45,006 nt of DNA from a virus (IMGVR_UViG_3300029286_002680:1-45006), one strand, 5' to 3'. Counted from the stretch's first letter, positions 11,980 to 28,412 are shown. Program-made: numbers and translations. Notes: generated by a model not told the origin, from the sequence alone.

Positions 11980-12597
11980 TTATCTTATATGCTTGTAGTC
12001 CTTAAAATCTTCTCTAATATCTGAATATCCAGCCCTTTGCCATGCTATACTGGGCATAAAACCATAGCATGGATATTGTTTTTGGAAGTCTGCCAAGTGC
12101 AGGTCCGCAGGTTTTCTAAATATTCTGTCATCGGCAAAGAATTTTACTAAATTTTCTGCAGCTTCTCTTTTGATACCGTAACAGTGTGTTGTATAGGTTT
12201 TCTTTAACTTATGAACGTGTGGAGTTATTTTCTTTAAAGGATTACTCCTGTGGCTACCGCCCAGGTATAGAAGCTGCCAGTCGGTTGGTACTCCTTTAAC
12301 GTATTCGGCAAACCTTGTGGCAACATTTCTGTCAAACTCTACATCATCTTCCATTATTAGAGCAGTTTTTATGGATGAATCTGCCAGCATCATCTCTAAA
12401 ACTTTTCGGTGAGAAAGGCAGCAGCCAGCCTCTCCAGGCTTAATATCACCAGTATTTGATAGAGTTTTCCCGTCAACTGCATCTACAAAATTTACGTTAA
12501 AATTAAAGTTTTTAAATACTGTCTGTGCATGCTGTTTTCTATCTGCTCTGCGCGGCAGATTAATACAGTACATTTTTGTGAAATCTCTGATTAGCAT
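11980..12597 (-). CDS. Glycosyltransferase family 25 (LPS-type)
   Basis: 205 residues. GT25 hallmarks: CINLPRRADRK (11-21), GEAGCCLSHRKV (about 55-66) and LIMEDDVEFD (about 79-88), the last holding the metal/donor-binding acidic residues. Bacterial members such as Lex1/LpsA add galactose or glucose to lipooligosaccharide. A paralogue with the same THCYxIKRE signature lies at 32264-32881. Its ATG shares a CATG palindrome with the divergent transketolase gene. Confidence 0.88.
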   Translation of the reverse strand: MLIRDFTKMYCINLPRRADRKQHAQTVFKNFNFNVNFVDAVDGKTLSNTGDIKPGEAGCCLSHRKVLEMMLADSSIKTALIMEDDVEFDRNVATRFAEYVKGVPTDWQLLYLGGSHRSNPLKKITPHVHKLKKTYTTHCYGIKREAAENLVKFFADDRIFRKPADLHLADFQKQYPCYGFMPSIAWQRAGYSDIREDFKDYKHIR

Positions 12598-13384
12598 GAT
12601 ACAAATTATTTCGACATATAGTCATATGCTTCCTAATACTAATAGAAAAAACATAATAAAGAAAATAGTTTTAACATCTTCTTTGAGCAAAGAAGGCCAT
12701 GTTCCAAGTGCATTGTCCATACTTGACATACTGTATGTTATATACGAAAAATTTATTACAAAAGGCGATCATAAATTTGTGCTTTCAAAAGGACATGCAT
12801 CTCTTGGTCTTTATGCAATAATGGAGCATTTTGGAATACTCCATGAAAATATGCAATCATTTTGCAAATTTTCATCAAAAATAGGCGGACATCCTTCTTC
12901 TAGGCTTAATGGAATAGAATGTTCAACAGGATCTCTTGGTCATGGTCTTCCATTTGCTTTGGGAATGGCAATGAGTAAAAAGATCAAGGGTGAATCTGGA
13001 AAAGTATTTTGTATTATTGGAGACGGAGAGTCTAATGAAGGAACTATATGGGAAACTGCATTACTTGCCTCACACCATAAAATTAATAATTTATGTTGTA
13101 TATTAGATCACAACCATTCTACAGACAGGGCTCTTGAAATTGGTGATATGGTCAAGAAATTTAAATCTTTTGGATGGGTATGCAGCAAAGTAGATGGTCA
13201 TAATATTGAGAAAATATCAAAAGTTCTTTTAAAGAAAGATCAATCAAGACCCCATTTCGTACTTGCTCATACGATAAAGGGTAAAGGCATAAAGCGGATG
13301 GAGAACAGTCCAGAATGGCACCATAAGTCTCCCAGTGCTACTGAGTGCGAAGATATGATCAAGGAACTATATGAAAGCATCTAA
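12596..13384 (+). CDS. Transketolase, N-terminal (TPP-binding) subunit
   Basis: About 262 residues, the size of separate N-terminal transketolase subunits. Key sites: SKGHASLGLY (about 64-73), CSTGSLGHGL (about 109-118) and the TPP/Mg motif IGDGESNEG (about 141-149) followed by the LDHN region, then THIKGKG-like HTIKGKGI near the C-terminus. It would pair with the C-terminal subunit at 14846-15721. Known chemistry is transfer of C2 units between ketoses and aldoses, for example making sedoheptulose 7-phosphate. The start is uncertain: ATG 12596 or ATG 12626; neither has a good ribosome binding site. Confidence 0.9.
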   Translation: MIQIISTYSHMLPNTNRKNIIKKIVLTSSLSKEGHVPSALSILDILYVIYEKFITKGDHKFVLSKGHASLGLYAIMEHFGILHENMQSFCKFSSKIGGHPSSRLNGIECSTGSLGHGLPFALGMAMSKKIKGESGKVFCIIGDGESNEGTIWETALLASHHKINNLCCILDHNHSTDRALEIGDMVKKFKSFGWVCSKVDGHNIEKISKVLLKKDQSRPHFVLAHTIKGKGIKRMENSPEWHHKSPSATECEDMIKELYESI

Positions 13385-14216
13385 AAGTCTAATTATTAAT
13401 ACAAGAGAATACGGCATGTTCTCCAGTCTGCTACAGATCATAGACAATATTAAGTACTGTGAACTAAATAAAATGAAGCCTATCATTAATATAGGTGAAA
13501 AGTTTCTTTATAGAGATGGACCAGAAAATCCCTGGAGTCACTATTTCAAGCCAATCAATGACGGGAAGCCGGAAGGTGAAGTATTTGAGGTTTCTCAGCT
13601 TACTTCAACTGCAAACTTCTTCTTAGAGAATTATGTTATGACTCGGCCAGTCATTCACGACTACAGACTAAAACTGTGGAATATGATAGCAGATCGAGAT
13701 GATCTTCTTGCGCATAGATTAGAGATCAAAGCAATGCTTGATAAATACGTTAAGCCTCTTCCAGTCATAATGAATGAGGTTAAAAAGTTTGCTAAAGGTA
13801 ATCTTAAAAACGAAAGTCAGGTGTCGGTTCATATTAGAAGTACGGACTATAAATTCACAAATCTTCCACTTTTGATAGATAAGATAAGCAAAATACAGCA
13901 GCAGAACAGTTACGAGAAAATATTTGTAGCGTCTGACAGTCTTGAAGCAATTATGGGGATATATAATGCGTTCCCAAATGTCTGCTACTACCACACTGAC
14001 TTGCGGTGCGAGAAGATAGATTCTCCAAAGCCCCTTTGTCATATAGTCCATGGTCAGGACAAGATAAAACATGGTCGTGATACAATAATTGAGTGCCTAT
14101 TGCTCTCAAGAGGAAAAGAGATAGTCTGCATCAATTCAAACGTAGCCGGTATGGCTTGCTATTTGAACCCAAATATGAAAATACATTTAATGCAACGCCA
14201 AGTGCATGGAGGCTAA
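13371..14216 (+). CDS. NodZ/O-fucosyltransferase-like glycosyltransferase
   Basis: 281 residues. NPWSHYFKPI (about 53-62), VHIRSTDY (about 147-154), IFVASDS (about 180-186) and the C-terminal ICINSNVAGMACYLNP-like stretch (VCINSNVAGMACYLNP) resemble the GDP-fucose-binding GT-B fold of NodZ (GT23) and protein O-fucosyltransferases, whose HxRxTD-type motif contacts the donor. Overlaps the transketolase stop by 14 bases. GDP-fucose-type donors could be supplied by Gmd and the Fcl-like enzymes in this window. The subfamily is uncertain. Confidence 0.65.
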   Translation: MKASKSLIINTREYGMFSSLLQIIDNIKYCELNKMKPIINIGEKFLYRDGPENPWSHYFKPINDGKPEGEVFEVSQLTSTANFFLENYVMTRPVIHDYRLKLWNMIADRDDLLAHRLEIKAMLDKYVKPLPVIMNEVKKFAKGNLKNESQVSVHIRSTDYKFTNLPLLIDKISKIQQQNSYEKIFVASDSLEAIMGIYNAFPNVCYYHTDLRCEKIDSPKPLCHIVHGQDKIKHGRDTIIECLLLSRGKEIVCINSNVAGMACYLNPNMKIHLMQRQVHGG

Positions 14217-14217
14217 G

Positions 14218-14844
14218 ATGAAAAAGAATGAAGTTATGACGATTGTCAACAATTTAAAAGGGAAGAGAAGCGGCACTCATCCGTGTCAAAACGATGAAGA
14301 ATTTGTGATACTTGCAAATTGGATAGAAAAATGTAATGACATGGATGGTCACTTTGTTGAGATAGGAGCATACGAAGGCTTCACAAGTGAATTTATATTC
14401 AATCTAAAAGGGGCAAAAAAGAAGCTTTTCCTGTGCGACACTTTTGAGGGACTTGCAGATGTATGTGAAGAAGACTCTTCACTTGGGATACCAAATGGAC
14501 TTCTCAAGGTAGATTATGAAAAATTCTTGCAGTTGAATAATTTTGCAGACGATTCAACAGTAACAGTTGTTCGTGGATATTTTCCAGATTCTTCCACAGC
14601 TAAAATGGATAAGGCAAAGTATTGCTTTGTGCATATAGATACAGATACATATCATTCAACTCTCAAGAGTTTAGAGTACTTCTATAGTAAAATGGTTAGC
14701 GGTGGTGTAATAATAGTACACGATTATATGGCCCATCCCGGAATGCGTGCAGTAAAAAAAGCAGTCAATGAGTTTATGTCTGACAAAGAAGACTCTTTGA
14801 CAACAGAGCCAGGTAGTACTCAGGGAATAATCGTTAAGATATAA
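14218..14844 (+). CDS. TylF/MycF-type sugar O-methyltransferase
   Basis: 208 residues from ATG 14218, with GGAGG 6 bases upstream. FVEIGAYEGFTSEFI (about 45-59) is the SAM site; VHIDTDTYHST (about 139-149) and GGVIIVHDYMAH (about 164-175) are the metal and substrate signatures of the macrocin-O-methyltransferase (TylF/MycF) family, which methylates sugar hydroxyls. It lies between the two transketolase halves, so its substrate may belong to the same pathway or glycan. Confidence 0.82.
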   Translation: MKKNEVMTIVNNLKGKRSGTHPCQNDEEFVILANWIEKCNDMDGHFVEIGAYEGFTSEFIFNLKGAKKKLFLCDTFEGLADVCEEDSSLGIPNGLLKVDYEKFLQLNNFADDSTVTVVRGYFPDSSTAKMDKAKYCFVHIDTDTYHSTLKSLEYFYSKMVSGGVIIVHDYMAHPGMRAVKKAVNEFMSDKEDSLTTEPGSTQGIIVKI

Positions 14845-14845
14845 A

Positions 14846-15721
14846 ATGAGAAAACAATTTGTTAAATCAATGAAAGAAATACTTCATGGTGATATCGACT
14901 CTGTGTTATTGCTAGGAGATATTGGAGTATTTGGCTTTCGAGACGAATTAAAAAATATCCCAAATAGGGCTTACAATATAGGCATATTGGAGCAAGCAAC
15001 TGTAAGCTTGGCAGCTGGAATGGCTCGTGGCGGGATGATACCTTTTATTCATACGATAGCTCCATTTATGGTCGAAAGAGCCCTGGAGCAAATAAAGGTA
15101 GATTTTGGATACCAAGAGCTAAACGGAAATTTCATTAGCGTAGGAGCGTCATACGACTACGCTGGTCTTGGATGCACACATCATTGCCCTGGAGATATTC
15201 AAAGTCTTTTGAGTATACCCAATATCAATATTTTTGTTCCCGGAACATCTCATGAATTTGATTGTCTTTTGAAGTCATTTTATAAATTGAGTATTCCAAA
15301 GTATTTCAGACTGAGCGAAAGCGAAAACTCAGTGTCTTTTGATTGCGAACCAGGGCGTGCTGCTATCGCTAAAAAGGGTCAGCTTGCGACTATTGTGTGC
15401 TACGGTCCAATATGCGAAGCGGTGATGAGGGCATGTGAAGAATTTGATGTTTCTATCCTTTACTATAATTCCATTCTTCCATTTGATGCAACTTCACTAG
15501 TTAATAATTTTAATGAAACAATAATTGTATGTGAGCCATTTTATGCAGGCACAACAAATTATCTTATTAATGAAGCCCTTGCTGGCAAAAAGTACAGAAT
15601 TTTCAATATTGGTGTACCAAGAAAATTCTTGCATAATTATGGCGATAAAAAACAACACGACCAGCATTTAATGCTTGATGCTGATGGCATAAGAAGAAAG
15701 GTTGCTGAATGCTTGATTTAA
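14846..15721 (+). CDS. Transketolase, C-terminal (pyrimidine-binding) subunit
   Basis: 291 residues, typical for the separate C-terminal subunit. The TPP-activating glutamate is in NIGILEQATVSLAAGMA (about 45-61); GDIQSLLSIPNINIFVP (about 116-132) and the C-terminal Rossmann-like domain (ATIVCYGPI, IIVCEPFYAG) follow the family pattern. With the N-terminal subunit two genes upstream it would make a complete enzyme. It starts one base after the methyltransferase stop and overlaps the next gene by 13 bases. Confidence 0.9.
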   Translation: MRKQFVKSMKEILHGDIDSVLLLGDIGVFGFRDELKNIPNRAYNIGILEQATVSLAAGMARGGMIPFIHTIAPFMVERALEQIKVDFGYQELNGNFISVGASYDYAGLGCTHHCPGDIQSLLSIPNINIFVPGTSHEFDCLLKSFYKLSIPKYFRLSESENSVSFDCEPGRAAIAKKGQLATIVCYGPICEAVMRACEEFDVSILYYNSILPFDATSLVNNFNETIIVCEPFYAGTTNYLINEALAGKKYRIFNIGVPRKFLHNYGDKKQHDQHLMLDADGIRRKVAECLI

Positions 15722-16743
15722 TAAATTTTGAATGCCGTGATATAGCAAAAAAAATAGACTTTTCATCATTAAGAAATAAGAAAATTCTAATTACAGGAGC
15801 TTCTGGCATCATGGGGATTTACATGCTCTCATGTTTAAAGAGCGTGCAAAAAGAACTAAATATAGGAATCTATTGCTGGGTAAATAACGACGTAGAGCCA
15901 GCGTTTAAAGAACTTTTTGATGGTACGGAAATAATCAAAGGGGATATATGCAATGATGGTCTTTTGACAGAAGTTTATGACTCATTGTGTGAAACTCTAG
16001 GTGGATTTGATTTTATATTCCATGCAGCAGGATATGCTCAGCCTAATAAATTTCTTGAAAATAAAGTAAAGACTATTGAGTTGAACACAGCTTCAACAAC
16101 AAGGCTTTTCAAGATGTTAAACAAGGGCGGTACTTTTGTCTTTATGAGTACAAGCGAGGTATACAGTGGCCTTGATAGCGATAGTATCACAGAGAATGAT
16201 ATTGGCAACTCTAAGCCAGATCATCCCAGGTCTTGCTATATTGAAGGAAAAAGATGTGGCGAATCTATATGCCATGCATTATCTGGCCAGAATGTCAAAG
16301 TAAAAATAATAAGGCTCAGTCTGGCTTATGGCCCAGGTACAAAGAAAAATGATCAACGCGTGCTCAATTCATTGTTTCAGAAGGCATTTGAAAAGGAAAG
16401 AATTGATTTGCTTGACAGTGGCTCTTCACTGAGGACATATGGATACATTTCAGACATCATCGAAATGGCCTGGAACATATCTTTATTTGGAAAGCAAATA
16501 GTTTATAATGTTTCTGGAGAATCAAGAACAAACATACTTGAACTAGCAACCATCATAGGAGAATTAACTGGCGTAGAAGTATACGCCCCTAAAGATGACG
16601 TTAATTCTCTTGCTGGTACTCCCAAGAACGTTAACCTCAGCTTAAGTAGATATTTTAACGAATTTAATAAAATAGATTTCATTCCCTTGCGCGAAGGACT
16701 AAGGCGCACAATGGAATGGCAGAAAGGTTTATATGGCATATAA
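15709..16743 (+). CDS. NAD-dependent nucleotide-sugar epimerase/dehydratase (extended SDR)
   Basis: 344 residues. Cofactor site ITGASGIMG (about 26-34), HAAGYAQP (about 106-113), catalytic MSTSEVYSG (about 145-153) and YIEGKR (about 178-183, the YxxxK pair). The C-terminal TYGYISDIIEMAW fits sugar-nucleotide SDRs such as UDP-glucuronate decarboxylase and dTDP-glucose dehydratase relatives. The exact substrate cannot be read. Overlaps neighbours by 13 and 11 bases in a coupled operon. Confidence 0.82.
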   Translation: MLDLINFECRDIAKKIDFSSLRNKKILITGASGIMGIYMLSCLKSVQKELNIGIYCWVNNDVEPAFKELFDGTEIIKGDICNDGLLTEVYDSLCETLGGFDFIFHAAGYAQPNKFLENKVKTIELNTASTTRLFKMLNKGGTFVFMSTSEVYSGLDSDSITENDIGNSKPDHPRSCYIEGKRCGESICHALSGQNVKVKIIRLSLAYGPGTKKNDQRVLNSLFQKAFEKERIDLLDSGSSLRTYGYISDIIEMAWNISLFGKQIVYNVSGESRTNILELATIIGELTGVEVYAPKDDVNSLAGTPKNVNLSLSRYFNEFNKIDFIPLREGLRRTMEWQKGLYGI

Positions 16744-17650
16744 AATAACAGCAGATGACATATCTGGCATTCTTGGCTTCAAGATAGCTGACTTGCCAGC
16801 AAAAATGGTTGATGATTTTGACTTACGCTATGAGCATCTCACAGACCAAGAGATGAATGACTATCTCATTCGTATTGTAGATGTGCTTACTGGAGACATA
16901 GTCAAGAGTGGCGCTCACCGAATAGATGATTGGGAAAAGGGCTGGGGAGAAAATCTTGATATGTATAAGCAAACCAAAGATATAAACTCTCTTATTCCTA
17001 AGTATCACTGTAAAAACAGACATGTTAGATGGATGGGTAATGTCGTCAATCCAATTACTCCAGCATTTGACTACAAGATACATATATGCTTTATTGACGC
17101 TATCTTGCATCACTACCTAAAGGATGGCTACAGTGGCGTATACGAGTTTGGGTGCGGACCTGGCTACCATTTACTCAGACTACGAGAGGCTCGTCCAGAC
17201 TTGAACCTGACGGGATTGGATTGGACCAAATCTTCTCAGGAGCTTATCGGTGAAATAAGTAAGTCTCTTTCCAAGCCGATAGGTGCTCATAATCTTGACT
17301 TTTTCAAGCCAGATTACAAATTTAATATAGACAGTAACAGCATTGCATATACCATTGCTGCACTTGAGCAGACTGGAAGCAACTATGTTAAGTTTGTTGA
17401 TTATCTATTAGATAAGAAGCCAGCTTTGTGCATCAACATGGAACCAATTGCAGAGCTATTGGACGAGTCAAAGTTGATAGATAATCTCTCTGTCAGATAT
17501 TTCAGAAAGAGAAATTACCTGCACGATTATCTAAAGCATCTTGAATGGCTTGAAAGTATTGGAAAGATTAAGATCATAGACAAGAGAAGAATATGGAGCG
17601 GAAGCTACTTCATTGAAGGCCATTCGCTAGTTGTCTGGAAGCCTTTGTAA
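16733..17650 (+). CDS. SAM-dependent methyltransferase
   Basis: 305 residues. VYEFGCGPGYHLLRL (about 139-153) and LTGLDWTKSS (about 161-170) form the nucleotide-binding half of a class I methyltransferase; the first ~110 residues are a separate helical region. A related FGCGACYHLRN motif is found in the minus-strand protein at 28430-29059, suggesting that the two are distant paralogues. The substrate is unknown but presumably the glycan or an amino-sugar intermediate. Confidence 0.78.
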   Translation: MAYKITADDISGILGFKIADLPAKMVDDFDLRYEHLTDQEMNDYLIRIVDVLTGDIVKSGAHRIDDWEKGWGENLDMYKQTKDINSLIPKYHCKNRHVRWMGNVVNPITPAFDYKIHICFIDAILHHYLKDGYSGVYEFGCGPGYHLLRLREARPDLNLTGLDWTKSSQELIGEISKSLSKPIGAHNLDFFKPDYKFNIDSNSIAYTIAALEQTGSNYVKFVDYLLDKKPALCINMEPIAELLDESKLIDNLSVRYFRKRNYLHDYLKHLEWLESIGKIKIIDKRRIWSGSYFIEGHSLVVWKPL

Positions 17651-17651
17651 A

Positions 17652-18485
17652 ATGCTATTATCAATACTAGTTCCAGGAAAAAATGATGGCTTTCGTTATA
17701 ACGGCGCAAAGACTATAGAATTTAATTTGAACCAAACTTTAGACAATATCCAAGCTTGTAAGGCAAAAGATGTGGAATTGGTTTTATGCGACTGGGGGAG
17801 CGAAAAAAAGATTGTAGAGCATGTAGTAAAGAGAAAACATAAAAACTTTAGATGTGTATATGTTTCACCTGAAATAGCAAAAAAATATAACGGTGAAGCA
17901 AACTATTCTATAGTTCATCCAATAAATACTGCATTTCGCCATAGCAAAGGCAAGTATGTATGTTTTTGGGATTCAGACTGTTTTATTTTGAATGATACTT
18001 TTAAAAAGCTGTATGAATTTGTTAAAAAAATGGATAGTACTCAAGATATGAATTTTTATTGGGCTTCCAGATTTCACGTTCCATTTGAATCATATAATAG
18101 TTTAAACAGTAATAAAGAATTGGTAAAGTTGATTGAAAATGGTGTTCAAGTTTATCATGATAAAATAAAAAGTGGATATGAATTCAGGGGAGCATCAATC
18201 GCTCTTCTTATGAATAGAGAGCTATGGGAAAACAGTACGGGATGGTATGAAGAGCTAAGATATTGGGGCTGGCAGGATATAGAGTTTCATCGTCGCTTAA
18301 TGCAGCGGTACGCCTATGGCGGAGACATTGAAGATTATGGAATGAAGTTCTTCCATCTAATGCAGCCTTCGGTTAAAGATGGAAATAAAAATAATCATCT
18401 AGTTAATCCATCTATTAATGCTAGATTTTTTAAAGCCAACCCACCAAGCTGGGGTTTAGTAAATGAAAAGTTAGAGGTTATATGA
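17652..18485 (+). CDS. Glycosyltransferase family 2/7-like
   Basis: 277 residues from ATG 17652, one base after the previous stop. SILVPGKND at the N-terminus, FWDSDCFIL (about 103-111, the DxD metal site) and, near the C-terminus, RGASIALLMNRELW and LRYWGWQDIEFHRRL (about 205-219), which matches the GT7-C/GT27-like W-G-x-E/Q-D-x-E-x-x-R signature. It would add a sugar residue. The C-terminal signature recurs in divergent form at 32868-33797. Confidence 0.78.
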   Translation: MLLSILVPGKNDGFRYNGAKTIEFNLNQTLDNIQACKAKDVELVLCDWGSEKKIVEHVVKRKHKNFRCVYVSPEIAKKYNGEANYSIVHPINTAFRHSKGKYVCFWDSDCFILNDTFKKLYEFVKKMDSTQDMNFYWASRFHVPFESYNSLNSNKELVKLIENGVQVYHDKIKSGYEFRGASIALLMNRELWENSTGWYEELRYWGWQDIEFHRRLMQRYAYGGDIEDYGMKFFHLMQPSVKDGNKNNHLVNPSINARFFKANPPSWGLVNEKLEVI

Positions 18486-18489
18486 ATCT

Positions 18490-19251
18490 ATGAGTCTTGA
18501 AATAAACTACATTGGTAGATTAGGAAATAATATTCTTCAATACTTGATGGGTCAATATCTGTCACATAAATTTAATTTACAATTTAACACAGAGCTAGAG
18601 TCTAATGATGATTTCATAGTCCACAAAACATCTGGCTCCAAAAATTATTCATGTAAAGTTGAAGTAAATGACAGCAACATATTTGACATTATTAATACTG
18701 AAAATATAAAACATGGAATACATTTAAATGGTTATTTTCACGACAGAAAAATATTTGAGAACAAACATATTATTAATTTCTATAAAAGTAGAATAATATT
18801 CAAACCACTTAATGGTGTTTCTGATCTTTTTGCGCATGTTAGACTCGGAGATATAGATAATAGGCATAATTTACCATATGAATATTATCATGAACAAATT
18901 GAAAAAGTACCATATGAAAAATGTACTATTTCAACTGATAGTCCTGACCATGATATAGTAAAGAAGCTAATGAGTAATTTTAAAAATTGTAATATTCTTG
19001 GAGATTGCAGTCCTAGCCATGCGCTTAGGTACGGCGCAAATTGCAATAATCTAGTTCTTAGTCCCGGTACTTTTAGTTTTTGCATAGCATTTTTTTCTCT
19101 TTGCGATCCAGACGTGTATTGTATAGATAATATAATTTTAAAAGAAAAATTTAATAGAGAAAGTTGGGATGGAGGCGTTTTTACGGCCTTCATTGGTCGA
19201 GAAAAATTTAACTTTTACAACAGATCATTATTAGAGGCTATTATTAAATGA
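18490..19251 (+). CDS. GT11-like fucosyltransferase (divergent)
   Basis: 253 residues. N-terminal GRLGNNILQYLMGQYL (about 8-23), FAHVRLGD (about 114-121) and LVLSPGTFSFCIAFFS (about 193-208) correspond to the three GT11 motifs (G-x-L-G-N-x-x-F-Q, H-x-R-x-G-D, S-x-S-T-F-S-W-W). GT11 enzymes are alpha-1,2-fucosyl or -colitosyl transferases. Motifs are degenerate compared with the clear GT11 at 20155-20931. It overlaps the Fcl-like gene by 4 bases, which supports a GDP-6-deoxyhexose donor. Confidence 0.68.
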   Translation: MSLEINYIGRLGNNILQYLMGQYLSHKFNLQFNTELESNDDFIVHKTSGSKNYSCKVEVNDSNIFDIINTENIKHGIHLNGYFHDRKIFENKHIINFYKSRIIFKPLNGVSDLFAHVRLGDIDNRHNLPYEYYHEQIEKVPYEKCTISTDSPDHDIVKKLMSNFKNCNILGDCSPSHALRYGANCNNLVLSPGTFSFCIAFFSLCDPDVYCIDNIILKEKFNRESWDGGVFTAFIGREKFNFYNRSLLEAIIK

Positions 19252-20153
19252 GTACACTTATAACGGGTGGTCGTGGTCTTTTGGGTTCCGCAATGACATT
19301 TGGACTTAAGCCATCAAGACAAGAATTAGATGTTCTTGATAGCATTAAACTTGAAGAATATATCATTAACAATAAAGTAGATTCGGTTATTCATGCTGCA
19401 GCAAAAGTCGGTGGAGTAAAAGCGAATGCTGATTTTGTTTATGATTACTTCTCTGATAATTTATCTATGAGTATGAATGTAATGAATATGTGCAAAAAAT
19501 ACAGATTCAAGAAGGCAATATTCGTTCTTTCAACCTGCATATTTCCATCTGCGGCTCCATTGCCATTAGAGGTGGAGTCTTTGCATCAGGGAGAGCCTCA
19601 TTACACCAACTTTGGATATGCATATGCAAAGAGAATGCTTGATGTCGGAGCAAGGGCTCTTAAGCAGCAACATGGAGTTGACAGCTCATGCATAATAGCT
19701 TGTAATTTATATGGAGAAAATGATAACTATAGTTTGAATAATGGTCATGTAATACCAAGTTTAATCCATAAATGTTGGATTGCAAAAAATACAAATACCA
19801 CGATGGAAGTATGGGGGTCTGGAAGGGCAGAGCGAGAGTTCATATATGTAAAAGACCTTGCTAAAATTATTGATCTATCATTTCATGATGATTCTAAAAA
19901 TTTTGACACCATGATAGTATCTCCTGATAGTACGTATGCGATTGAAGAAATAGTATACGAAATAGTAAAGCAAATGAAATTTGATGGAAATGTATATTTT
20001 GATAAATCAAAACCTGAAGGCATATTGAAGAAAAACTCTTGTAATAAAAAATTCAAGTCTTTATACCCAGATTTTAAATTTACTTCTCTAGATGAGGGCT
20101 TGAGTAGTACTATAGAATACTTCATTAAGCATTATACAGAAGTAAGAAAGTAA
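19248..20153 (+). CDS. fcl: GDP-L-fucose synthase-like epimerase/reductase
   Basis: 301 residues, close to the ~310-320 of GDP-fucose synthase (Fcl/WcaG). ITGGRGLLGSA (about 5-15), HAAAKVGGVKAN (about 49-60), FVLSTCIFP (about 91-99) and the catalytic YAYAKRM (about 126-132) are all diagnostic; NLYGENDNY follows. Family members convert GDP-4-keto-6-deoxymannose to GDP-fucose with NADPH. The substrate-maker Gmd lies at 42214-43224. The homologue at 22063-22995 could be either Fcl or ColC; which gene does which is not resolved. Ends one base from the convergent GT11 gene. Confidence 0.85.
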   Translation: MSTLITGGRGLLGSAMTFGLKPSRQELDVLDSIKLEEYIINNKVDSVIHAAAKVGGVKANADFVYDYFSDNLSMSMNVMNMCKKYRFKKAIFVLSTCIFPSAAPLPLEVESLHQGEPHYTNFGYAYAKRMLDVGARALKQQHGVDSSCIIACNLYGENDNYSLNNGHVIPSLIHKCWIAKNTNTTMEVWGSGRAEREFIYVKDLAKIIDLSFHDDSKNFDTMIVSPDSTYAIEEIVYEIVKQMKFDGNVYFDKSKPEGILKKNSCNKKFKSLYPDFKFTSLDEGLSSTIEYFIKHYTEVRK

Positions 20154-20154
20154 G

Positions 20155-20931
20155 TTAAATGACTGACCACTCTGGTGGGAAAAGATCTTTCGTGCAGTCT
20201 GCAAGTGTTGGGTGTGATTCTTTATATGGCCATTTATTTCCAAACCAATTTTGTGGTCTGAATACTTTTTTAGGTTTGCCTAAATAAGCTCCCCACCAAC
20301 TGAACGTACTATTTGCCATAATTACATTATCGCAATTAGACATAAGAAGCATTGAATGATACGCTGGTGCTGTTACAAAAATATAATCTGGACCTTCAAA
20401 TTGAGCTTTACACCATTGAATATCATCTGAAAATACTAAAATCTTGTTTCTATTCGGTATTTTATTTATGCAACTAAGATAATATTCATGAGTCATTTTT
20501 GGGTATACATCAGGATGTTTTAAATAGTCTCCCCTTCGAATATGTATTGCGACAAGATTTTCTTGTCCTATTAAACCTTCATATTTAAAATTATCTATTC
20601 CATTTAATTCTTCATAGATATATTTTTTGAAAGAAAATGCTTTCTTGACTTCTTCCAATGCGTTAGAGAAATATTTTGGAGATTGAAAATAGCCATGAAG
20701 ATGAGTATGCGGCTTTAATTTAAAAAACTTTTCGTAAAAACTAAATGTTTTCTCTTCAAATAAATGCTTTGATTTTTCGTTAAGTTTTTTTACGCCTATT
20801 AATTCAAATCCTTTAACTTCATCATCTCCAACGTATCCACATTCAACCCCATGGCGTTTTGCAAGAGCAATGGCTGATGCAATTTGAAATAGATTATTGC
20901 CAGTATGTCCTTTTAATTGTACAGATATCAT
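20155..20931 (-). CDS. Glycosyltransferase family 11 (fucosyl/colitosyl transferase)
   Basis: 258 residues. All GT11 motifs are intact: KGHTGNNLFQIASAIALA (7-24), AIHIRRGDYLKHPDVY (about 133-148) and IMANSTFSWWGAYLG (about 204-218). GT11 members add L-fucose, or colitose in Escherichia coli O55 (WbgN), in alpha-1,2 linkage. It overlaps the ColD-like gene by 4 bases and is followed by no further gene on this strand, so it is the last cistron of the long minus-strand run. The neighbour makes a colitosyl transferase at least as plausible as a fucosyl one. Confidence 0.9.
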   Translation of the reverse strand: MISVQLKGHTGNNLFQIASAIALAKRHGVECGYVGDDEVKGFELIGVKKLNEKSKHLFEEKTFSFYEKFFKLKPHTHLHGYFQSPKYFSNALEEVKKAFSFKKYIYEELNGIDNFKYEGLIGQENLVAIHIRRGDYLKHPDVYPKMTHEYYLSCINKIPNRNKILVFSDDIQWCKAQFEGPDYIFVTAPAYHSMLLMSNCDNVIMANSTFSWWGAYLGKPKKVFRPQNWFGNKWPYKESHPTLADCTKDLFPPEWSVI

Positions 20932-22082
20932 AATGCATTCAAAATAGAAGTCAGTTTTCTTACGTCTTGTTCATTGATGGTTTCGTTGTTACCAACATAA
21001 AATGAATTATTGTGTATAAAGTTTGCATTTTTACAAGCATCAGGCATGGGGAATATAAAAGTATCAGTTTTCTCCAACATTGGATGCTTTAATAAATTGC
21101 CAGCTATTAGTGGTCTATTCTCAATTTGATTGGCATCCAGTGCATTTTTTACATCTATTGGTTTTACACTTTTACATATAATGGGGAATGCATATAAACT
21201 AGTTCCATCTGTGACAAAATCAGAGTAATATTTTTCTCTGTCTATTGAAGCAACAAATGTTTTAAAGTTCTTGTTTCTTATGTGTATAGATTTTTCAAGT
21301 CTGTCTATTTGCTCTATGCCAAGAACTGCTTGAAGATCAGTATTTCTGACGTTATATCCTGAGCATAAAAAAGTAAATCTTTGGTCAACGCCTTCTTGTT
21401 TGTATTTTTCGCGCTTTTCTTCTGGTAACTCCCTAAGCAGTCCGTGCGATCTCAAAAGCAATAGACGCTCGTAAAATTCATCATCATTTGTGCATATCAT
21501 TCCACCCTCTATTGTGGTCATATGATGTCCATAGAAAAATGAAAATGTTGAGGCCTTACCAACTGTGCCTATTTTATTTCCATTCCATACAGTGCCGTGT
21601 GACTCACAGCAATCCTCAAATATTATCACTCCATTTTCAGAACACAATTTTATAAGTTCTTCAGAAAGAGCAGATAAACCAAGTACATGTGTTAAAAAAA
21701 TATACTTAATATCATGCAGTTTTATATAATTACTTACATCTTCTATGCTGGGTCCTAAATTTTTTAAGTCTATATCTGTTAGAAAAATGCCACCCTTTTT
21801 TTGAAGTTGAATAATAGGGGCTATATTTGTAGACCATGTGCAACTTTGAGCAGCCCAACTTCCATGCCCATATAGATCATGCGCAGCTTGTACAAGTATT
21901 AAATTAGCAGATGAGCCAGAATTGACAAAAACGCTATGCTTTACGCCAAGCCATTTTGACCACTTGTTTTCAAATTCTTTAACTTTTGCGCCATAAGTAA
22001 GCCTTGCATCACTCATCAAGAATTCACACATCTTTGTCCTATCAGAGTGACTTATAGCCCCGTCATGCATTAATTTCCACAT
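20928..22082 (-). CDS. ColD-like GDP-4-keto-6-deoxymannose 3-dehydratase (DegT/DnrJ fold)
   Basis: 384 residues (ColD is 388), started at ATG 22082 with GGAGA 7 bases upstream. The fold is DegT/DnrJ/EryC1 (VNSGSSANL at 53-61, IIFEDCCESHG at 153-163). The PLP-lysine position of aminotransferases is occupied by histidine in SFFYGHHMTTIEGG (181-194; His186), as in ColD, where this histidine replaces lysine and the enzyme is a dehydratase rather than an aminotransferase. GYNVRNTDLQAVLGIEQ and ENRPLIAGNLLKH also follow ColD. RfbH-type 3-dehydratases share the histidine but are longer and bind an Fe-S cluster. A 3,6-dideoxyhexose product such as colitose is inferred. Confidence 0.78.
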   Translation of the reverse strand: MWKLMHDGAISHSDRTKMCEFLMSDARLTYGAKVKEFENKWSKWLGVKHSVFVNSGSSANLILVQAAHDLYGHGSWAAQSCTWSTNIAPIIQLQKKGGIFLTDIDLKNLGPSIEDVSNYIKLHDIKYIFLTHVLGLSALSEELIKLCSENGVIIFEDCCESHGTVWNGNKIGTVGKASTFSFFYGHHMTTIEGGMICTNDDEFYERLLLLRSHGLLRELPEEKREKYKQEGVDQRFTFLCSGYNVRNTDLQAVLGIEQIDRLEKSIHIRNKNFKTFVASIDREKYYSDFVTDGTSLYAFPIICKSVKPIDVKNALDANQIENRPLIAGNLLKHPMLEKTDTFIFPMPDACKNANFIHNNSFYVGNNETINEQDVRKLTSILNAL

Positions 22083-22995
22083 TTTTTGTCTCCATCAATT
22101 TTTTACATACTTGCCTTACTCCACTTTCAAGAGAAGTAAAATTAAAATATCCAGTTATATTTATTAATTTATCAGAAGATACATCTTTTCTAAAAATACC
22201 ATCTAAATTGCCGTTATATCTTATATCTCCTTGAAACTCTATTATATTTTTGACTATATTGGCTATTTGAGATATAGTTAAATTTTCTGGTATTGCTGCG
22301 TTGTAATCTCCTTGTAAATTAAGCTCATGTGCTTTGATAAGTATTTTTGCAGCATCACCTGCGTACATGAATTGCCTCATTGGTTTTCCTGTTCCCCAAA
22401 GTTCTACTTCTGGAAGATTTTTTAATTTGGCATTATAAAACTTCTTTATTAAAGCAGTTACTAAATGACTTTTTACATCATTGTGAAACTCATCATATTC
22501 TCCATAAAGATTGCAGAAATAAAGAGTGCAATATTTTAATCCATACTGTTTGTGTGCTGCTTGTAGCATTTGCCCTGCAAATCTTTTAGAATATGCGTAA
22601 GAGTCATTGGTTGGCTCTGGCTCTCCATCATTAACCATATCCTCTGTCATTGGATAAGACCTGGCTTCTTTTGGATACACACATGTACTAGAAGAGAATA
22701 TAATTGGTATATTTTTTTTAACGCAATAATTTATTACATTAGTATTCATTGTATTATTGATATGGATAAAATCGTATGGACTTTCTGTGTTCCACTTAAT
22801 CCCACCAACTCTTGCAGCAAGATGGAATATTTTATCTGGAGCATATAGGTCAAGCGTCTTTTCAACTTCTGCTTGATCGCACAAATTAACGTCTTTGGAG
22901 GATAGATACGTAAATTCTGGTTTTATATCTTTTAAACTTCGACCCAAAAGTCCACTTCCTCCGGTTATAAGTATTTTTTGATTTGTTTTATTCAT
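22063..22995 (-). CDS. GDP-fucose/GDP-colitose synthase-like epimerase/reductase
   Basis: 310 residues. ITGGSGLLGRS (10-20), LAARVGGIKWN (about 58-68), SSSTCVYPKEA (about 100-110) and catalytic YAYSKRFAGQ (about 133-142) are Fcl-family motifs. It directly precedes the ColD-like gene (20-base overlap), the relation of ColC to ColD in colitose gene clusters, so it may be GDP-L-colitose synthase. It could equally be the fucose synthase, with the 19248 gene as ColC. AAAGAGAAAACC before the ATG serves as a weak ribosome binding site. Confidence 0.8.
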   Translation of the reverse strand: MNKTNQKILITGGSGLLGRSLKDIKPEFTYLSSKDVNLCDQAEVEKTLDLYAPDKIFHLAARVGGIKWNTESPYDFIHINNTMNTNVINYCVKKNIPIIFSSSTCVYPKEARSYPMTEDMVNDGEPEPTNDSYAYSKRFAGQMLQAAHKQYGLKYCTLYFCNLYGEYDEFHNDVKSHLVTALIKKFYNAKLKNLPEVELWGTGKPMRQFMYAGDAAKILIKAHELNLQGDYNAAIPENLTISQIANIVKNIIEFQGDIRYNGNLDGIFRKDVSSDKLINITGYFNFTSLESGVRQVCKKLMETKNVEINA

Positions 22996-23013
22996 GGTTT
23001 TCTCTTTTTAAGT

Positions 23014-23751
23014 TTATTCTTTTACGTAAAGCCTATCTGATATAATATCTTTTATTAAAGAATATCCCATTCCGGTAAGCATATTGTGTATGTCCTTATC
23101 AGCACTAAATGATCCAAGCCATCCTCTTTTTTCACCTTTATTGATAATGGTTTCTAAAAATATCATTTTAGGCTTTATGCTTCCCATGCCGTTCAAAACA
23201 TACCATTCTGCTCCTTCTACATCTATATGGGCTACATCTACTTCATCTATTTTATTTTCCTTGCAAAATGAATCAATAGATATACATTTGACTGTAATCG
23301 GATCTTGCTCTTGCTTTATATGGGGATATATTGATTTATATAAATCCGTATGCTTAAGTAGTGATCCTTGACCAAGTGCTTGTCCATCTACGAATGATTG
23401 ATAAAATTGACTTTCTCCATTATGATCTGAAACTGCTAATGGAATAAAATTTACATCAAATTTTTTAATGTATTTTTCTATTAAATTTATTCTTGCAGGG
23501 TCGCCTTCGAAAGAATATACATTAGCTTCAGGAAATTTATGCTTAAGCCTTATTGCATCTCCACCGTCATAAGAGCCTATATCTAATATAACTTTTGGAT
23601 TTATATTACATTCTTTTATCCAATTTGTATTAAAGCTGCTATGCAATATTTCATGATCTTGCATGCTTGCTAATTTTAAGGCTTCATGTAAATCGTGGTC
23701 GAATGCTTCGCCGTCTTTTATTTGTGGTGATATAGTATATTCATATCTCAT
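23014..23751 (-). CDS. FkbM-family methyltransferase
   Basis: 245 residues. VILDIGSYDGGDAIRL (about 54-69), YSFEGDPARINLIEKYI (about 78-94), and VDVAHIDVEGAEWYVLNG (about 171-188) are the motifs of FkbM methyltransferases, which methylate hydroxyl groups of sugars or polyketides. The ATGA overlap with the upstream cyclase gene means translational coupling. The substrate is not visible. Confidence 0.85.
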   Translation of the reverse strand: MRYEYTISPQIKDGEAFDHDLHEALKLASMQDHEILHSSFNTNWIKECNINPKVILDIGSYDGGDAIRLKHKFPEANVYSFEGDPARINLIEKYIKKFDVNFIPLAVSDHNGESQFYQSFVDGQALGQGSLLKHTDLYKSIYPHIKQEQDPITVKCISIDSFCKENKIDEVDVAHIDVEGAEWYVLNGMGSIKPKMIFLETIINKGEKRGWLGSFSADKDIHNMLTGMGYSLIKDIISDRLYVKE

Positions 23752-24812
23752 AATTTATCTTTCTCAATCGAAGAGAACCATTCGTCTATGACATTATGCA
23801 TATCTTGATTTTTATTGATCATATGCACGAACATATCTCCAGCTTTCTTTGTCAATATGAAGCCATAGTGTGTGCTTGTATTCTTTTTATCTTTGGCTAA
23901 AAACGATGTGATTAAGTTGGAGTCTATCGATTTAATAGGACATACTTTGTATATATTTCTTAGCGTTTTATTATATCTTATATAGTCTGCTTCTGACAAA
24001 AACCCAAGTTTCATTGATGTAAAATTAGCAACATCCATTCCATAGGCAACTGCTATACCGTGTGGTATCGCATAGTCCATCATAGACTCTATTGCATGCC
24101 CAAATGAATGTCCATAATTTAGAAGTTTTCTTTCTTTCTTTTCAAATTCATCTATCTCAATAAACTTCTTTTTTATCATAAGAGATCTCTTGACTATGTT
24201 TATCTTGCTTGCATTATTCATGTTGTCCATAAAGAACTTTAGATCATCTTCTCCAGAAACCAAAAAGTAGTGCAACATCTCCCCCATTCCAGAGAGTATT
24301 TCTGTAGTTGAGAGAGATTTCTCGAATTCTGGATATATAAACACTTTTTCTGGTGGGTAGAAGTTTCCGATTTGATTTTTATACGATTCAAAATTAATAG
24401 AAGTTTTTGACCCTATGCAGCTATCTCCTTGAGACAGTAGTGTAGTTGGTACGTAGCTCCATTTTATTCCCCTAAACAATATAGAAGCGGAGAACGATAC
24501 AACGTCCTGTACAATACCTCCCCCTATTGCCACTAAGTGAGTATCCTTTGTTATACCGCAGTCCAGGAGCTTTCTCATTACACCCTCGACTCCACGATAC
24601 GATTTTGTTGTCTCGGAACTTGTGATGAAGATTGCCTTATGACCGTAAGTATTTATCAGTCCATTTAAAAAATCGTCAACTACGAATATAATATTACTTA
24701 AAGACTCTGATACATTAAGCCTTTCTACCAATCGATCTATTGACAGGTCTTCATTTAAAAAATCAACATCATATTTCTTTATTTTAGATTCAATACTTAG
24801 TCTTTCATACAC
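23748..24812 (-). CDS. Dehydroquinate-synthase-like sugar-phosphate cyclase
   Basis: 354 residues from GTG 24812, which has GGAGG 8 bases upstream; ATG 24827 is an in-frame alternative without a ribosome binding site. NAD site AIGGGIVQDVVSF (about 95-107), SYVPTTLL (about 119-126) and SCIGSKTSIN (131-140). All three zinc ligands of the family appear: Glu in GMGEMLHYF, His in NYGHSFGHAIE and His in IPHGIAVAYGM. It belongs to the cyclase superfamily that includes AroB and sedoheptulose-7-phosphate cyclases (valiolone-type). Neighbours are sugar genes and no shikimate gene is present, so a C7 sugar phosphate substrate is more likely than DAHP. Activity unproven. Confidence 0.82.
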   Translation of the reverse strand: MYERLSIESKIKKYDVDFLNEDLSIDRLVERLNVSESLSNIIFVVDDFLNGLINTYGHKAIFITSSETTKSYRGVEGVMRKLLDCGITKDTHLVAIGGGIVQDVVSFSASILFRGIKWSYVPTTLLSQGDSCIGSKTSINFESYKNQIGNFYPPEKVFIYPEFEKSLSTTEILSGMGEMLHYFLVSGEDDLKFFMDNMNNASKINIVKRSLMIKKKFIEIDEFEKKERKLLNYGHSFGHAIESMMDYAIPHGIAVAYGMDVANFTSMKLGFLSEADYIRYNKTLRNIYKVCPIKSIDSNLITSFLAKDKKNTSTHYGFILTKKAGDMFVHMINKNQDMHNVIDEWFSSIEKDKL

Positions 24813-25521
24813 AGGAGAACCCTCCATCAACTATAAGGTTGTGTCCTGTTATATATGTATTGTCTGGCGAGCTAAGGAATGCAACTGCTTTTGCTATCTC
24901 ATCTGTCGTTGCTAGTCTTTGCATCGGAATGTCATTTCTTATCTTAGCGATTCCATCTTCTCCTAGCATCCTCTGAGTTAATTCTGTCATAGTGAAACCT
25001 GGAGAAACGCAATTTACCATGATATTCCATGGAGCCAGTTCTACTGCTATAGTCTTGGTCATTCCTATGAGAGCGGACTTTGTCATTGTGTAAAGAGACC
25101 TGCCAGATTTTGTTTTTGTTCCCCATATAGAAGCTATGTTAACTATATGTCCCTTACGTTTTTCTTTCATCTTTTCAGATACTATCTTAATAGTCTCAAA
25201 TGCAGATCTTAGATTAGTGTCCATAAGTAATTCATACTCATCATTAGTATAATCGCTAAATGGTTTAACAATATTAGTGCCTACATTGTTAATACATATA
25301 TCTATTCCAGTACGTTCTATCTTTTCAGTTAACAGTTTTTTGTATTCTTCTACAGAACCGCTATCAGAGAAATCAACTGGTATGTACATGTCGCTATCAT
25401 CATTTGCTGATCTGCCAGTACATATAACACTAGCACCATGGTTTCTCATGGCGCTAGCTATTGATAGCCCTATTCCCCTAGTCGATCCAGTCACTAAGGC
25501 GACCTTTCCATGTAGTGTCAC
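24805..25521 (-). CDS. Short-chain dehydrogenase/reductase (classical, FabG-like)
   Basis: 238 residues from GTG 25521, supported by AAGGA 6 bases upstream. GSTRGIG (12-18) cofactor site, INNVG (about 82-86), catalytic Ser in VNIASIWG (about 131-138) and YTMTK (about 147-151), and C-terminal ITGHNLIVDGGF. Lies between the cyclase and the SIS isomerase, where a ketone reduction or alcohol oxidation on the cyclised product would fit. The substrate is inferred only. Confidence 0.88.
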   Translation of the reverse strand: MTLHGKVALVTGSTRGIGLSIASAMRNHGASVICTGRSANDDSDMYIPVDFSDSGSVEEYKKLLTEKIERTGIDICINNVGTNIVKPFSDYTNDEYELLMDTNLRSAFETIKIVSEKMKEKRKGHIVNIASIWGTKTKSGRSLYTMTKSALIGMTKTIAVELAPWNIMVNCVSPGFTMTELTQRMLGEDGIAKIRNDIPMQRLATTDEIAKAVAFLSSPDNTYITGHNLIVDGGFSCV

Positions 25522-25530
25522 ATTTTATCC

Positions 25531-26097
25531 TTAATGAACCATTTTTCTAATAATCTCATCTTTAATGACTGGACACTTATTCCCACTACCATACACTAAC
25601 TCATAAAAACTCATAACACACATTATTTCGTGTGTATGAAAGTACTGAGTTTCACATACAAGTTCATTGACTCCATCTGGAAGACAGGTAGATTTTTGTC
25701 CAGATATAAGATGGGAAGAGAAATTATACTGATCCTTAGCCCAAGCGAGTGCAGAGATTACACTCTTTGATCCACCAGACCCAGAGTATCCAATCACTAT
25801 AGACTTTGTCTCCTTTGATCCTAGTGCATAAAGCTCAAGCCATCTTTTAAATATATTCTCATAGCCGAAGTCATTCGCTATAGAAGTAAGCAGGGATTGA
25901 CTATCAAGAGCGTATGTCTTCTTTCCAGACAGGCGTGTTGCGTCAGCAGCTGCATGACTTGCCACAGCCATATTTCCGCCATTTCCTATAATATATACCG
26001 AATCAGCTTCATTAAAGGAGTTCTGAAGACGCTCCCATTCTTTTGTTGTTGTAATTTGCTCAAATCTGCTATATAAGTTTTCAAATGGGCATTTCAT
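25531..26097 (-). CDS. SIS-domain phosphoheptose isomerase-like protein
   Basis: 188 residues, the size of GmhA (about 190). AAAGGAG 6 bases before the ATG. SIS motif VYIIGNGGNMAVASHAAADAT (34-54; compare G-N-G-G-S-A in GmhA), then SIVIGYSGSGGSKSVISALAWA (about 98-119), the second phosphosugar loop. GmhA interconverts sedoheptulose 7-phosphate and D-glycero-D-manno-heptose 7-phosphate. The C-terminal His-rich TQYFHTHEIMCVM matches the helix that carries a metal-binding His in GmhA. It is either a true heptose isomerase or a relative with another phosphosugar. Confidence 0.8.
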   Translation of the reverse strand: MKCPFENLYSRFEQITTTKEWERLQNSFNEADSVYIIGNGGNMAVASHAAADATRLSGKKTYALDSQSLLTSIANDFGYENIFKRWLELYALGSKETKSIVIGYSGSGGSKSVISALAWAKDQYNFSSHLISGQKSTCLPDGVNELVCETQYFHTHEIMCVMSFYELVYGSGNKCPVIKDEIIRKMVH

Positions 26098-26107
26098 TGT
26101 ATCTCCT

Positions 26108-27295
26108 TTAGTATGGAATGTTTGGTATTTGTTTGTCTCTTACAAGCATAGACTTGCAAGATTTTGAAATTAAATTTATTGCATTATAAATTTCATGTTC
26201 TGATATTGCCATGCTGGGTCTAAGCCTTACAGTTTTTTCTTTTGTAGGATTGCATATCATACCCAATTCTTTTAGCGTTTTGGCAAAATAATCCCTATGA
26301 TCCTTGTTCTCAAAGTCTACGGCTAAAAGTAACCCACAATTTCTTACATTACAAAGTCCATTAATCGATTTTAACATATTTGATATTTTGTCTCCCGATG
26401 ACGATGCATTGTCAAGCAATTTAAATTTATCGTATGCTTTAATAATATATTTGCATCTTAGCATATCAACTAAATCTCCATCAAATGTGACACAAACACG
26501 ACTATTTTTCTTGTAAAATAAGTTAGGTCTGCTCATTAGGCCAGATACTTGAGATTTTTTTCCAAATATTACTATATCAGGCAAAATATTCAACTTATTA
26601 AAGTACCATACATCTCCTGTAACTCCAAATCCGGTTTGTATTTCATCAAAAATCACAGGAACAGATCTTGATTTTGCTTCTTGACATAATTCTTTTATGA
26701 AAGATTTATTTAAATAATTATCACCAAACGTAGCTTGTATTGGCTCTATTAGTAAAGCTGCTACATCGCCAGAACTTACTTCTTTAATAAATTCACTGAT
26801 ATCTTTAACTTTTGGCCAGTTAAAATCTGGGAACCCTTCCAGTCTTTCGCTTACCGGATAAAATCTATCTGTTGTAAAATTTCCATAAGATTGCACCCCA
26901 TGGAAACTATTTGAAATGGACACAATTCTTTTTTTACCTGTATGTTCCATTGCTAATTTGCATGCACATTCTACAGCTAATGCCCCAGTGCAAGTAAAAT
27001 GAAAGTTGGAATAATAATTACATCCAGCAAAATTATAAAATGCATCTATGAATTCATCTTTTTCTATACTATCAAACTCACAATTTGCTATTTTTATATG
27101 AGCTATTTTTTTTAATTCATCATAAAATCCATCTTCAAATATTTCATGATTGTAGCCCAATGGCATTGATGAATACATGCTAAAAAAATCTAAATATTCA
27201 CGTCCAGTATTTATATCAAATAAATAACTGCCATGGCTTTTAAAAAGATCGGCTTTAATATTCCAAAAGCTTGTTTTAGCTATTTTTATAGACAT
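26108..27295 (-). CDS. Class III PLP aminotransferase, lysine-6-aminotransferase-like
   Basis: 395 residues. CTGALAVECACKLA (about 102-115) phosphate loop, SFHGVQSYG (130-138), IFDEIQTGFG (215-224) and the PLP lysine in FGKKSQVSG (244-252). The FGKKxQVxG form and the C-terminal TVRLRPSMAISEHEI are like L-lysine 6-aminotransferase rather than the commoner GABA/ornithine types. In this setting it more likely aminates a sugar or cyclitol ketone, or a side chain, than lysine; this is a guess. Overlaps the CMP-sugar synthetase gene by 20 bases. Confidence 0.83.
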   Translation of the reverse strand: MSIKIAKTSFWNIKADLFKSHGSYLFDINTGREYLDFFSMYSSMPLGYNHEIFEDGFYDELKKIAHIKIANCEFDSIEKDEFIDAFYNFAGCNYYSNFHFTCTGALAVECACKLAMEHTGKKRIVSISNSFHGVQSYGNFTTDRFYPVSERLEGFPDFNWPKVKDISEFIKEVSSGDVAALLIEPIQATFGDNYLNKSFIKELCQEAKSRSVPVIFDEIQTGFGVTGDVWYFNKLNILPDIVIFGKKSQVSGLMSRPNLFYKKNSRVCVTFDGDLVDMLRCKYIIKAYDKFKLLDNASSSGDKISNMLKSINGLCNVRNCGLLLAVDFENKDHRDYFAKTLKELGMICNPTKEKTVRLRPSMAISEHEIYNAINLISKSCKSMLVRDKQIPNIPY

Positions 27296-28412
27296 GTGCT
27301 ACATCACTTCTGCTCACTGCAAGTCTTACTGACATTTTTTCTCCTACACATTTAATTTGATGCCATTTATTCTTTGGTATAAAAATGACATCATCTTTTT
27401 TGGCAATATTTTTTTTGCCTTCTATCTCAAACTCCCATTCTCCCTCAACTATATACCACCATTCGTTCCAGTTAGGATGATAATGTCTCCTATTTCCTTC
27501 TCCTGGAAGCTGTGCTATTAGACAACAGCTATTACTCTCTGTATCTACGACTCTTCTCATCCAAGATTCATTATTTGGCTTTTCATTTATTATATTTCTT
27601 ACATTGACTATTGTTATATTTTCTTGTGAATAATCTCCACTAGAAACTCCATCTTTTTTCAATATATCTGGAACTATAGCTTCAGATATAATATCAGAAT
27701 GTAAATCTTTATTGTAATAAACTGGTTCCATTTCAGATGGCAAGCTAAGTGATTCAAGTATTTTTTCAGCTAAGAAAAAGTCACTTATAGTATCTATATC
27801 AACAGTGGAAACCCCATCAATCGTGTGGAATCCTGTTTTTCCATCTCCTCCATGATATGCGCATTCATATTTTTCCATGTTTTGTAAATATCTATTTTTT
27901 CCCCAAGCCATCATTCCGCACGCATATGCTTTTATAGGCTCAATGTCTTGTGACCTTGGAGTTTTTTCTTTTTGCTTAAAATTAAGTGGCTTCTGCTCAT
28001 AGACACATTCGATTTGTACATTTTTTACTAATATTAAGGTCTCATACTCATTTACTTCCATATCATCAACAAATTCAATAATGTCTTTTGGCTGAATAAA
28101 TGGAGACGTTGCTAAAAATTGATAAAGAACATCCATTTCTATATTCTTAATAAAATCATACGCAAAATCATCATTAGTTGCAGTGTCTGATGAAAGGTGT
28201 TCTGGTCTTTTATAAAATTTAACGCCATATGCATTAGCTATATCTGCAAAAACATCAGATTCTGAATTTATGTATATGTCATCAAACTTTTTTGAAGCTT
28301 TTACAGCTTCAATTATATATGCTATAAGTGGCTTTCCAGCAAGTATTCTCAGATTCTTATTCGGAACTCTTTTGCTGCCCATTCTTGCTGGTATCATTGC
28401 TATTCTTTTCAT
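27276..28412 (-). CDS. CMP-sugar synthetase (NeuA-like) fused to a cupin domain
   Basis: 378 residues. Residues 1-225 resemble CMP-N-acetylneuraminate/CMP-sugar cytidylyltransferases: AMIPARMGSKRVPNKN (5-20), AGKPLIAY (25-32), LATSPF (100-105) and VDIDT (204-208). Residues about 265-370 are a cupin with HYHPNWNEWWYIVEGEWEFE (310-329) and HQIKCV (351-356), giving metal-binding His and Glu positions. Sugar-linked cupins are often isomerases or binding domains. The fusion suggests activation plus processing of one unusual sugar. GGAGAG lies just before the ATG. Confidence 0.83.
   Translation of the reverse strand: MKRIAMIPARMGSKRVPNKNLRILAGKPLIAYIIEAVKASKKFDDIYINSESDVFADIANAYGVKFYKRPEHLSSDTATNDDFAYDFIKNIEMDVLYQFLATSPFIQPKDIIEFVDDMEVNEYETLILVKNVQIECVYEQKPLNFKQKEKTPRSQDIEPIKAYACGMMAWGKNRYLQNMEKYECAYHGGDGKTGFHTIDGVSTVDIDTISDFFLAEKILESLSLPSEMEPVYYNKDLHSDIISEAIVPDILKKDGVSSGDYSQENITIVNVRNIINEKPNNESWMRRVVDTESNSCCLIAQLPGEGNRRHYHPNWNEWWYIVEGEWEFEIEGKKNIAKKDDVIFIPKNKWHQIKCVGEKMSVRLAVSRSDVAHVYKNS

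Follow-up and report, generated by a model that had tools for sequence, protein, structure and literature searches.

Gene content and recurrence of the cassette

The DNA analysed here is the 45,006-base virus record IMGVR_UViG_3300029286_002680:1-45006, the whole of which we call the window, and it carries on its minus strand five adjacent enzyme genes between positions 23748 and 28412, identified by open reading frame (ORF) calling and Pfam searches. These encode a cytidylyltransferase fused to a cupin (NEU, 27276..28412; CTP_transf_3 and Cupin_2), a class III aminotransferase (AT3, 26108..27295; Aminotran_3), a SIS-domain protein (SIS, 25531..26097; SIS_2 at 24.6 bits, slightly under the Pfam cut-off), a short-chain dehydrogenase/reductase (SDR, 24805..25521; SDR) and a cyclase (CYC, 23748..24830; DHQ_synthase and DHQS_C). 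CYC and SDR overlap by 26 bp and AT3 and NEU by 20 bp, and the remaining gaps are 9-10 bp. The initial annotation of this DNA had placed the same five families at this position, where all of them are found; the three zinc ligands that it assigned to the cyclase are present (E184, H241 and H257), and, as it stated, the window is devoid of any further recognised shikimate gene.

The first relative to be found was a single viral contig with a NEU 53% identical to that of the window, and alignment-based scans then gave many, initially on the basis of NEU and AT3 and subsequently with the cyclase alone. The viral contigs were not dereplicated, and the counts given below include some near-copies. 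Among 37 viral contigs with NEU (window included), AT3 occurs in 35, SIS in 34 and CYC in 22, and all 22 contigs with CYC also contain SDR, nearly always within 60 bp. Because it recurs in so many viral contigs, the gene set is far beyond what chance would produce. Five contigs (L002, L022, L026, L027 and L029) carry NEU, AT3 and SIS fused to a HAD-like domain, together with an HpcH/HpaI aldolase and a second cytidylyltransferase, and have no cyclase.

Scanning viral contigs with the window cyclase as a single query gave no match, while a cyclase alignment yielded 113 candidates, of which 80 were kept and 79 read. The family to which these proteins belong, TIGR04425, has no known reaction, and can now be placed, in two main contexts and a minor one, on no fewer than 79 contigs of uncultivated viruses (out of 113 candidates). 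In type A (32 of the 79 loci), NEU occurs together with SIS (30), AT3 (25) and an SDR no more than 60 bp from the cyclase (30), and 27 loci also hold a GT29- or DUF115-like gene. The 38 loci of type B have no NEU; in them the cyclase is joined by RfbH (35), an RmlB-like dehydratase (35), an acetolactate-synthase-like thiamine pyrophosphate (TPP) enzyme (38), an SDR within 60 bp (36) and an HpcH-like aldolase (23); examples are the viral loci L175, L188 and L204, with L143, L146, L147, L149 and L150 as further loci, and this gene set looks like an undescribed branched-sugar route that occurs in bacteria and phages. Taking types A and B together, an SDR lies within 60 bp of the cyclase in 66 of 70 loci. 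Type C (six viral loci: L161, L169, L206, L216, L224 and L226) consists of a NeuA-like gene, a DegT aminotransferase, CYC and SIS; judged by its gene families, this is a swap of the aminotransferase for one of another class, so that amination recurs with a different enzyme.

The initial annotation knew of no phage with this combination, which stands for 50,697 phage records, where nothing close was found (the cyclase had only distant AroB-like matches, and there was no full-length cytidylyltransferase-cupin), but fails for uncultivated viruses, dozens of whose contigs carry the set. Plasmid records contained distant AroB-type matches only, and a literature search that covered few subscription papers found no work on TIGR04425, none on comparable dehydroquinate-synthase cassettes in phages and none on the gene combination.

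Since the window consists mostly of glycan genes and no structural gene was recognised in it, it could be asked whether a bacterial polysaccharide island has been misfiled as viral. We regard this as very hard to believe, as the closest relative of the window, contig L030 (NEU 69% and SIS 66% identical), encodes, next to the shared cassette, T4-like replication proteins that include a clamp loader (phrog_168 at 417.7 bits); a late sigma factor match (phrog_234) was seen in another relative, and a phage-type helicase match (phrog_62) in the window itself. On L030, a glutamine-synthetase-like ORF (587-1690) was also seen by eye beside the T4-like replication genes.

A genome scan with NEU located bacterial loci in Omnitrophota, Ignavibacteriota, Marinimicrobia, Gammaproteobacteria, Planctomycetota, Bacteroidota and others. 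In 8 of 11 bacterial genomes the cassette cyclase scores above the TIGR04425 cut-off, and seven of these eight have a second, lower-scoring AroB-like gene. The family is sporadic, being above cut-off in 4 of 297 Alteromonas-family genomes and in 8 of 296 genomes of the phylum of L007. In eleven bacterial TIGR04425 loci, picked independently of other genes, an SDR always adjoins the cyclase, and the gene neighbours of these loci show the two main contexts already seen for the viral cyclases. Some loci combine SIS with Gfo/Idh and 2-hydroxyacid dehydrogenase genes, and four of those hold NEU as well; the rest have a TPP enzyme and an HpcH-like aldolase alongside genes of the RfbF/G/H type. The module adjoins flagellin in Alteromonas arenosi, and flagellin-like genes lie beside the bacterial cassette in Alteromonadaceae (L012, 11305-12105; L140, 2508-3317), suggesting that it may serve flagellin modification there.

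The cyclase and its pocket

The best NCBIfam match of the window cyclase is TIGR04425 ("AroB-related putative sugar phosphate phospholyase (cyclizing)"), at 354.9 bits against a curated cut-off of 400; with the AroB model TIGR01357 it scores 242.4 bits, under the cut-off of 305. The predicted structure (predicted local distance difference test score 86) is most similar to AroB (Z 38), then to DOIS (35.6), EEVS (33.7) and DDGS (33.2), four enzymes with one common fold among which the order of Z-scores discriminates weakly. In a maximum-likelihood tree of 59 sequences, which is unrooted, holds a few long rows and took in no DOIS sequence, the cassette cyclases and the TIGR04425-positive bacterial ones lie on one side of a branch (support 100/99), apart from AroB and from the cyclases of sedoheptulose 7-phosphate (SH7P). 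The latter form a clade of their own (100/98), and the window cyclase is outside it.

The pocket of AroB for its substrate, 3-deoxy-D-arabino-heptulosonate 7-phosphate (DAHP), is given as eleven residues in PMC6262012, and ten of these are kept in the window cyclase, the position of Lys197 being occupied by His187. The zinc ligands, too, are shared with AroB. At N268, H275, K250 and K356, where EEVS and DDGS have, respectively, Asp/Ala, Pro, Met and no Lys, the window cyclase has N, H, K and K. Of 13 AroB catalytic and pocket residues that were mapped, 12 are retained in all 79 viral cyclases and only position 197 varies: type A loci, the NEU context, have His there in 30 of 32 cases, and all 38 of type B have Lys. 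K197H, which sets the window cyclase apart from the TIGR04425 model along with its score, is the single residue that tracks the cytidine monophosphate (CMP) context within a pocket that is DAHP-like rather than SH7P-like.

These comparisons identify the protein, as far as sequence and predicted fold can tell, as an AroB-fold enzyme of a clade separate from both AroB and the SH7P cyclases, and we infer a substrate close to DAHP, with one contact changed. A viral 3-dehydroquinate synthase that boosts the aromatic amino acid pathway of the host would account for the ten retained pocket residues and the AroB chains as nearest folds. It would leave unexplained the separate clade, the replacement of Lys197, the glycan-gene context throughout, the lack of a recognised shikimate partner in the window, and the second AroB-like gene in seven of eight bacterial carriers; we consider it very unlikely, and rejected the window as a plain carrier of AroB on clade, pocket and that second gene.

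The C7-cyclitol synthases EEVS and DDGS, known from validamycin, acarbose and mycosporine pathways, share superfamily and fold with the window cyclase and differ from it in clade and at the four pocket positions above. The initial annotation had the cyclase acting on SH7P; this step is unsupported because SH7P cyclases are without several pocket residues that the window cyclase keeps.

Companion enzymes and the split transketolase

AT3 is nearest to L-lysine 6-aminotransferase, and scores 242 bits against that model where 520.8 are needed. The catalytic Lys and the R422 position are kept, whereas R170 and E243, which we take to bind or gate the substrate in lysine 6-aminotransferase, are replaced by Val and Thr in the window and lost in every complete cassette AT3, in contrast to their retention in 21 of 21 solitary phage homologues. 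Lysine was rejected as the substrate on these losses; the earlier label "lysine-6-aminotransferase-like" is correct for the descent of AT3. Solitary genes of this kind with R170 and E243 are found in many phages (L003, L068-L096), some with huge genomes.

SIS had been called a GmhA-like isomerase. Its fold matches GmhA (Z 21.9) and DiaA (20.8), but it scores 59.8 of the 209 bits needed for the GmhA model, and in full-length cassette copies Glu65 and His180, the catalytic residues of GmhA, are changed to Asp and Tyr, as checked against the E. coli GmhA sequence. With its catalytic His lost and Asp in place of Glu, SIS was rejected as an ordinary GmhA.

NEU carries the complete N-terminal PARxGSKRxPxKN and DxD motifs of CMP-ulosonate cytidylyltransferases (NeuA/PseF/KdsB), seen in the window as PARMGSKRVPNKN and D205/D207, and cupin ligands at H310/H312/E317/H351. 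A comparison over 48 relatives showed both the nucleotide/metal motifs and the His/Glu ligands of the cupin to be kept. The match to the PseF model is 103.8 bits (cut-off 205.7).

A split transketolase was found on the plus strand, 8 kb from the cyclase and on the opposite strand to it, as an N-terminal chain with the TPP domain (12578 or 12596..13384) and a C-terminal chain with the Pyr domain (14846..15721), 1.5 kb apart; its nearest solved structures by sequence, 6yaj/6yak, are of a split transketolase. The pair predicted earlier is thus real, whereas its proposed role as supplier of SH7P finds no tie to the cyclase: transketolase occurs in 6 of 22 NEU contigs with CYC and in 3 of 15 without (p = 0.71), and is accompanied by RfbH in eight of nine contigs (p = 3.5e-5), neither value being corrected for shared ancestry. 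The window itself, which has no RfbH, is the exception, and in L043 an acetolactate-synthase-type TPP enzyme takes the place of transketolase near RfbH. Because it tracks RfbH and not the cyclase, the transketolase is probably part of a branched-sugar route, and we rejected it as a member of the cassette.

The route first proposed for this locus ran from transketolase through SH7P to a valiolone-type cyclitol made by the cyclase, which would then be aminated and activated with CMP. The cyclase superfamily, the GmhA-like fold of SIS (GmhA being a sedoheptulose-7-phosphate isomerase) and the presence of the transketolase agree with it; the retained DAHP pocket and the clade of the cyclase, the altered SIS active site and the independence of transketolase from the cyclase make it, in our view, quite improbable. 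What survives of this proposal is a co-inherited cassette with cyclase, redox, amination and cytidine triphosphate (CTP) activation steps, and a cyclase other than the housekeeping AroB; its SH7P starting point does not. The product may be an aminocyclitol.

A putative route to a CMP-activated glycan unit

The genes that flank the cassette, also on the minus strand, are an FkbM methyltransferase (23014..23751), overlapping the cyclase by 4 bp, and, on the other side, a methyltransferase-like gene (28430..29059) with a 64% identical homologue beside NEU in L023. Next to the latter lies an MptE-like/DUF115 protein (29071..29868; PF01973 at 36.4 bits, cut-off 34.6), which also has a weak match to the sialyltransferase CST-I and is a candidate transferase for a CMP-activated product. 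GT29 and MptE-like neighbours, as assigned by Pfam, would fit the use of a CMP donor.

It is very likely that these genes produce some unusual nucleotide-activated unit destined for cell-surface sugars. The more specific reading we favour, at about even confidence, is that of a phage surface-glycan cassette whose product is an ulosonate-like unit, activated with CMP and probably both acidic and aminated, which is made by AroB-type chemistry on a 3-deoxy-2-ulosonate phosphate and then transferred to a glycan. SIS would isomerise a sugar phosphate, and the cyclase would act on a 3-deoxy-2-ulosonate 7-phosphate, such as DAHP or a stereoisomer, by nicotinamide adenine dinucleotide-dependent oxidation at C5, loss of phosphate and re-reduction. 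The ring could then close, giving a carbocyclic acid that resembles dehydroquinate, or the deoxy-keto acid could be released; in the review PMC7144000, dehydroquinate synthase is held to give little help to ring opening and aldol closure, so that release before carbocycle formation is possible. The SDR, so tightly paired with the cyclase, may then reduce or oxidise the product, AT3 with its catalytic Lys would add an amino group, the NeuA-like domain of NEU would load CMP from CTP, and a sialyltransferase- or DUF115-like transferase, as suggested by the neighbours, would move the unit to a host or virion glycan.

The cassette resembles the CMP-nonulosonate pathways (sialic, pseudaminic and legionaminic acid) and that of CMP-3-deoxy-D-manno-octulosonate in its NeuA/PseF-like cytidylyltransferase, its aminotransferase, its sialyltransferase- or DUF115-like neighbours and its occurrence in flagellin and surface-glycan islands. 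Unlike them, it has an AroB-related cyclase, an SDR and SIS, a cytidylyltransferase fused to a cupin, no recognised NeuB-type synthase alongside and, in the window, an aminotransferase of class III instead of DegT.

Several observations speak against this interpretation. Neither a phosphoenolpyruvate-dependent ulosonate synthase of the NeuB type nor an HpcH aldolase could be recognised among the genes of the window. A true carbocycle would offer a NeuA-type enzyme no anomeric carbon, which makes the cyclase hard to fit in unless ring closure does not take place. Finally, 15 of the 37 NEU contigs are without CYC, and no cyclase was found elsewhere in those searched, so that the core can work without the cyclase or take its precursor from the host.

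The same contigs, 14 of them with AT3 and 13 with SIS, bear on the main rival explanation, which ranks first since NEU is found without CYC and CYC without NEU: two parallel pathways may share the locus, NEU, AT3 and SIS making one CMP-activated amino sugar, and CYC and SDR a different product that goes into a second branch of the glycan. The 38 viral loci with cyclase and SDR beside RfbH and a TPP enzyme, and L023, where a cyclase/SDR/SIS block lies 6 kb from NEU/AT3, agree with such a division. Where NEU and CYC occur together, however, their genes are mostly intermixed within a single run (NEU-SDR-CYC-AT3-SIS among other orders), and K197H follows the NEU context (30 of 32 loci versus none of 38). 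We judge two pathways to be a real possibility, though not a probable one.

If the ulosonate-like reading is right, phages carry whole pathways for a new CMP-activated glycan unit, with a bearing on receptor masking, superinfection exclusion and virion glycosylation. A bolder version, which we put forward as speculative and rather doubtful, is that the DAHP-type cyclase leads to an amino acid sugar that is carbocyclic (quinate-like) and CMP-activated, a cyclitol counterpart of sialic acid that has spread among phages as a glycan decoration. Nucleotide-activated cyclitols occur in C7-cyclitol pathways (GDP-valienol), and a carbocyclic CMP product would, if true, be a new class of them.

Elsewhere in the window we noted a Dps/starvation-inducible-regulator-like gene (418-777; phrog_858), tRNA-Ser (GGA; 874-960) and tRNA-Gln (TTG; 9461-9531), a CsrA/RsmA-like ORF of 70 residues on the plus strand (44189-44401), spotted by eye, and a carbamoyltransferase (33790-35373; Carbam_trans_N/C) amid glycosyltransferases.

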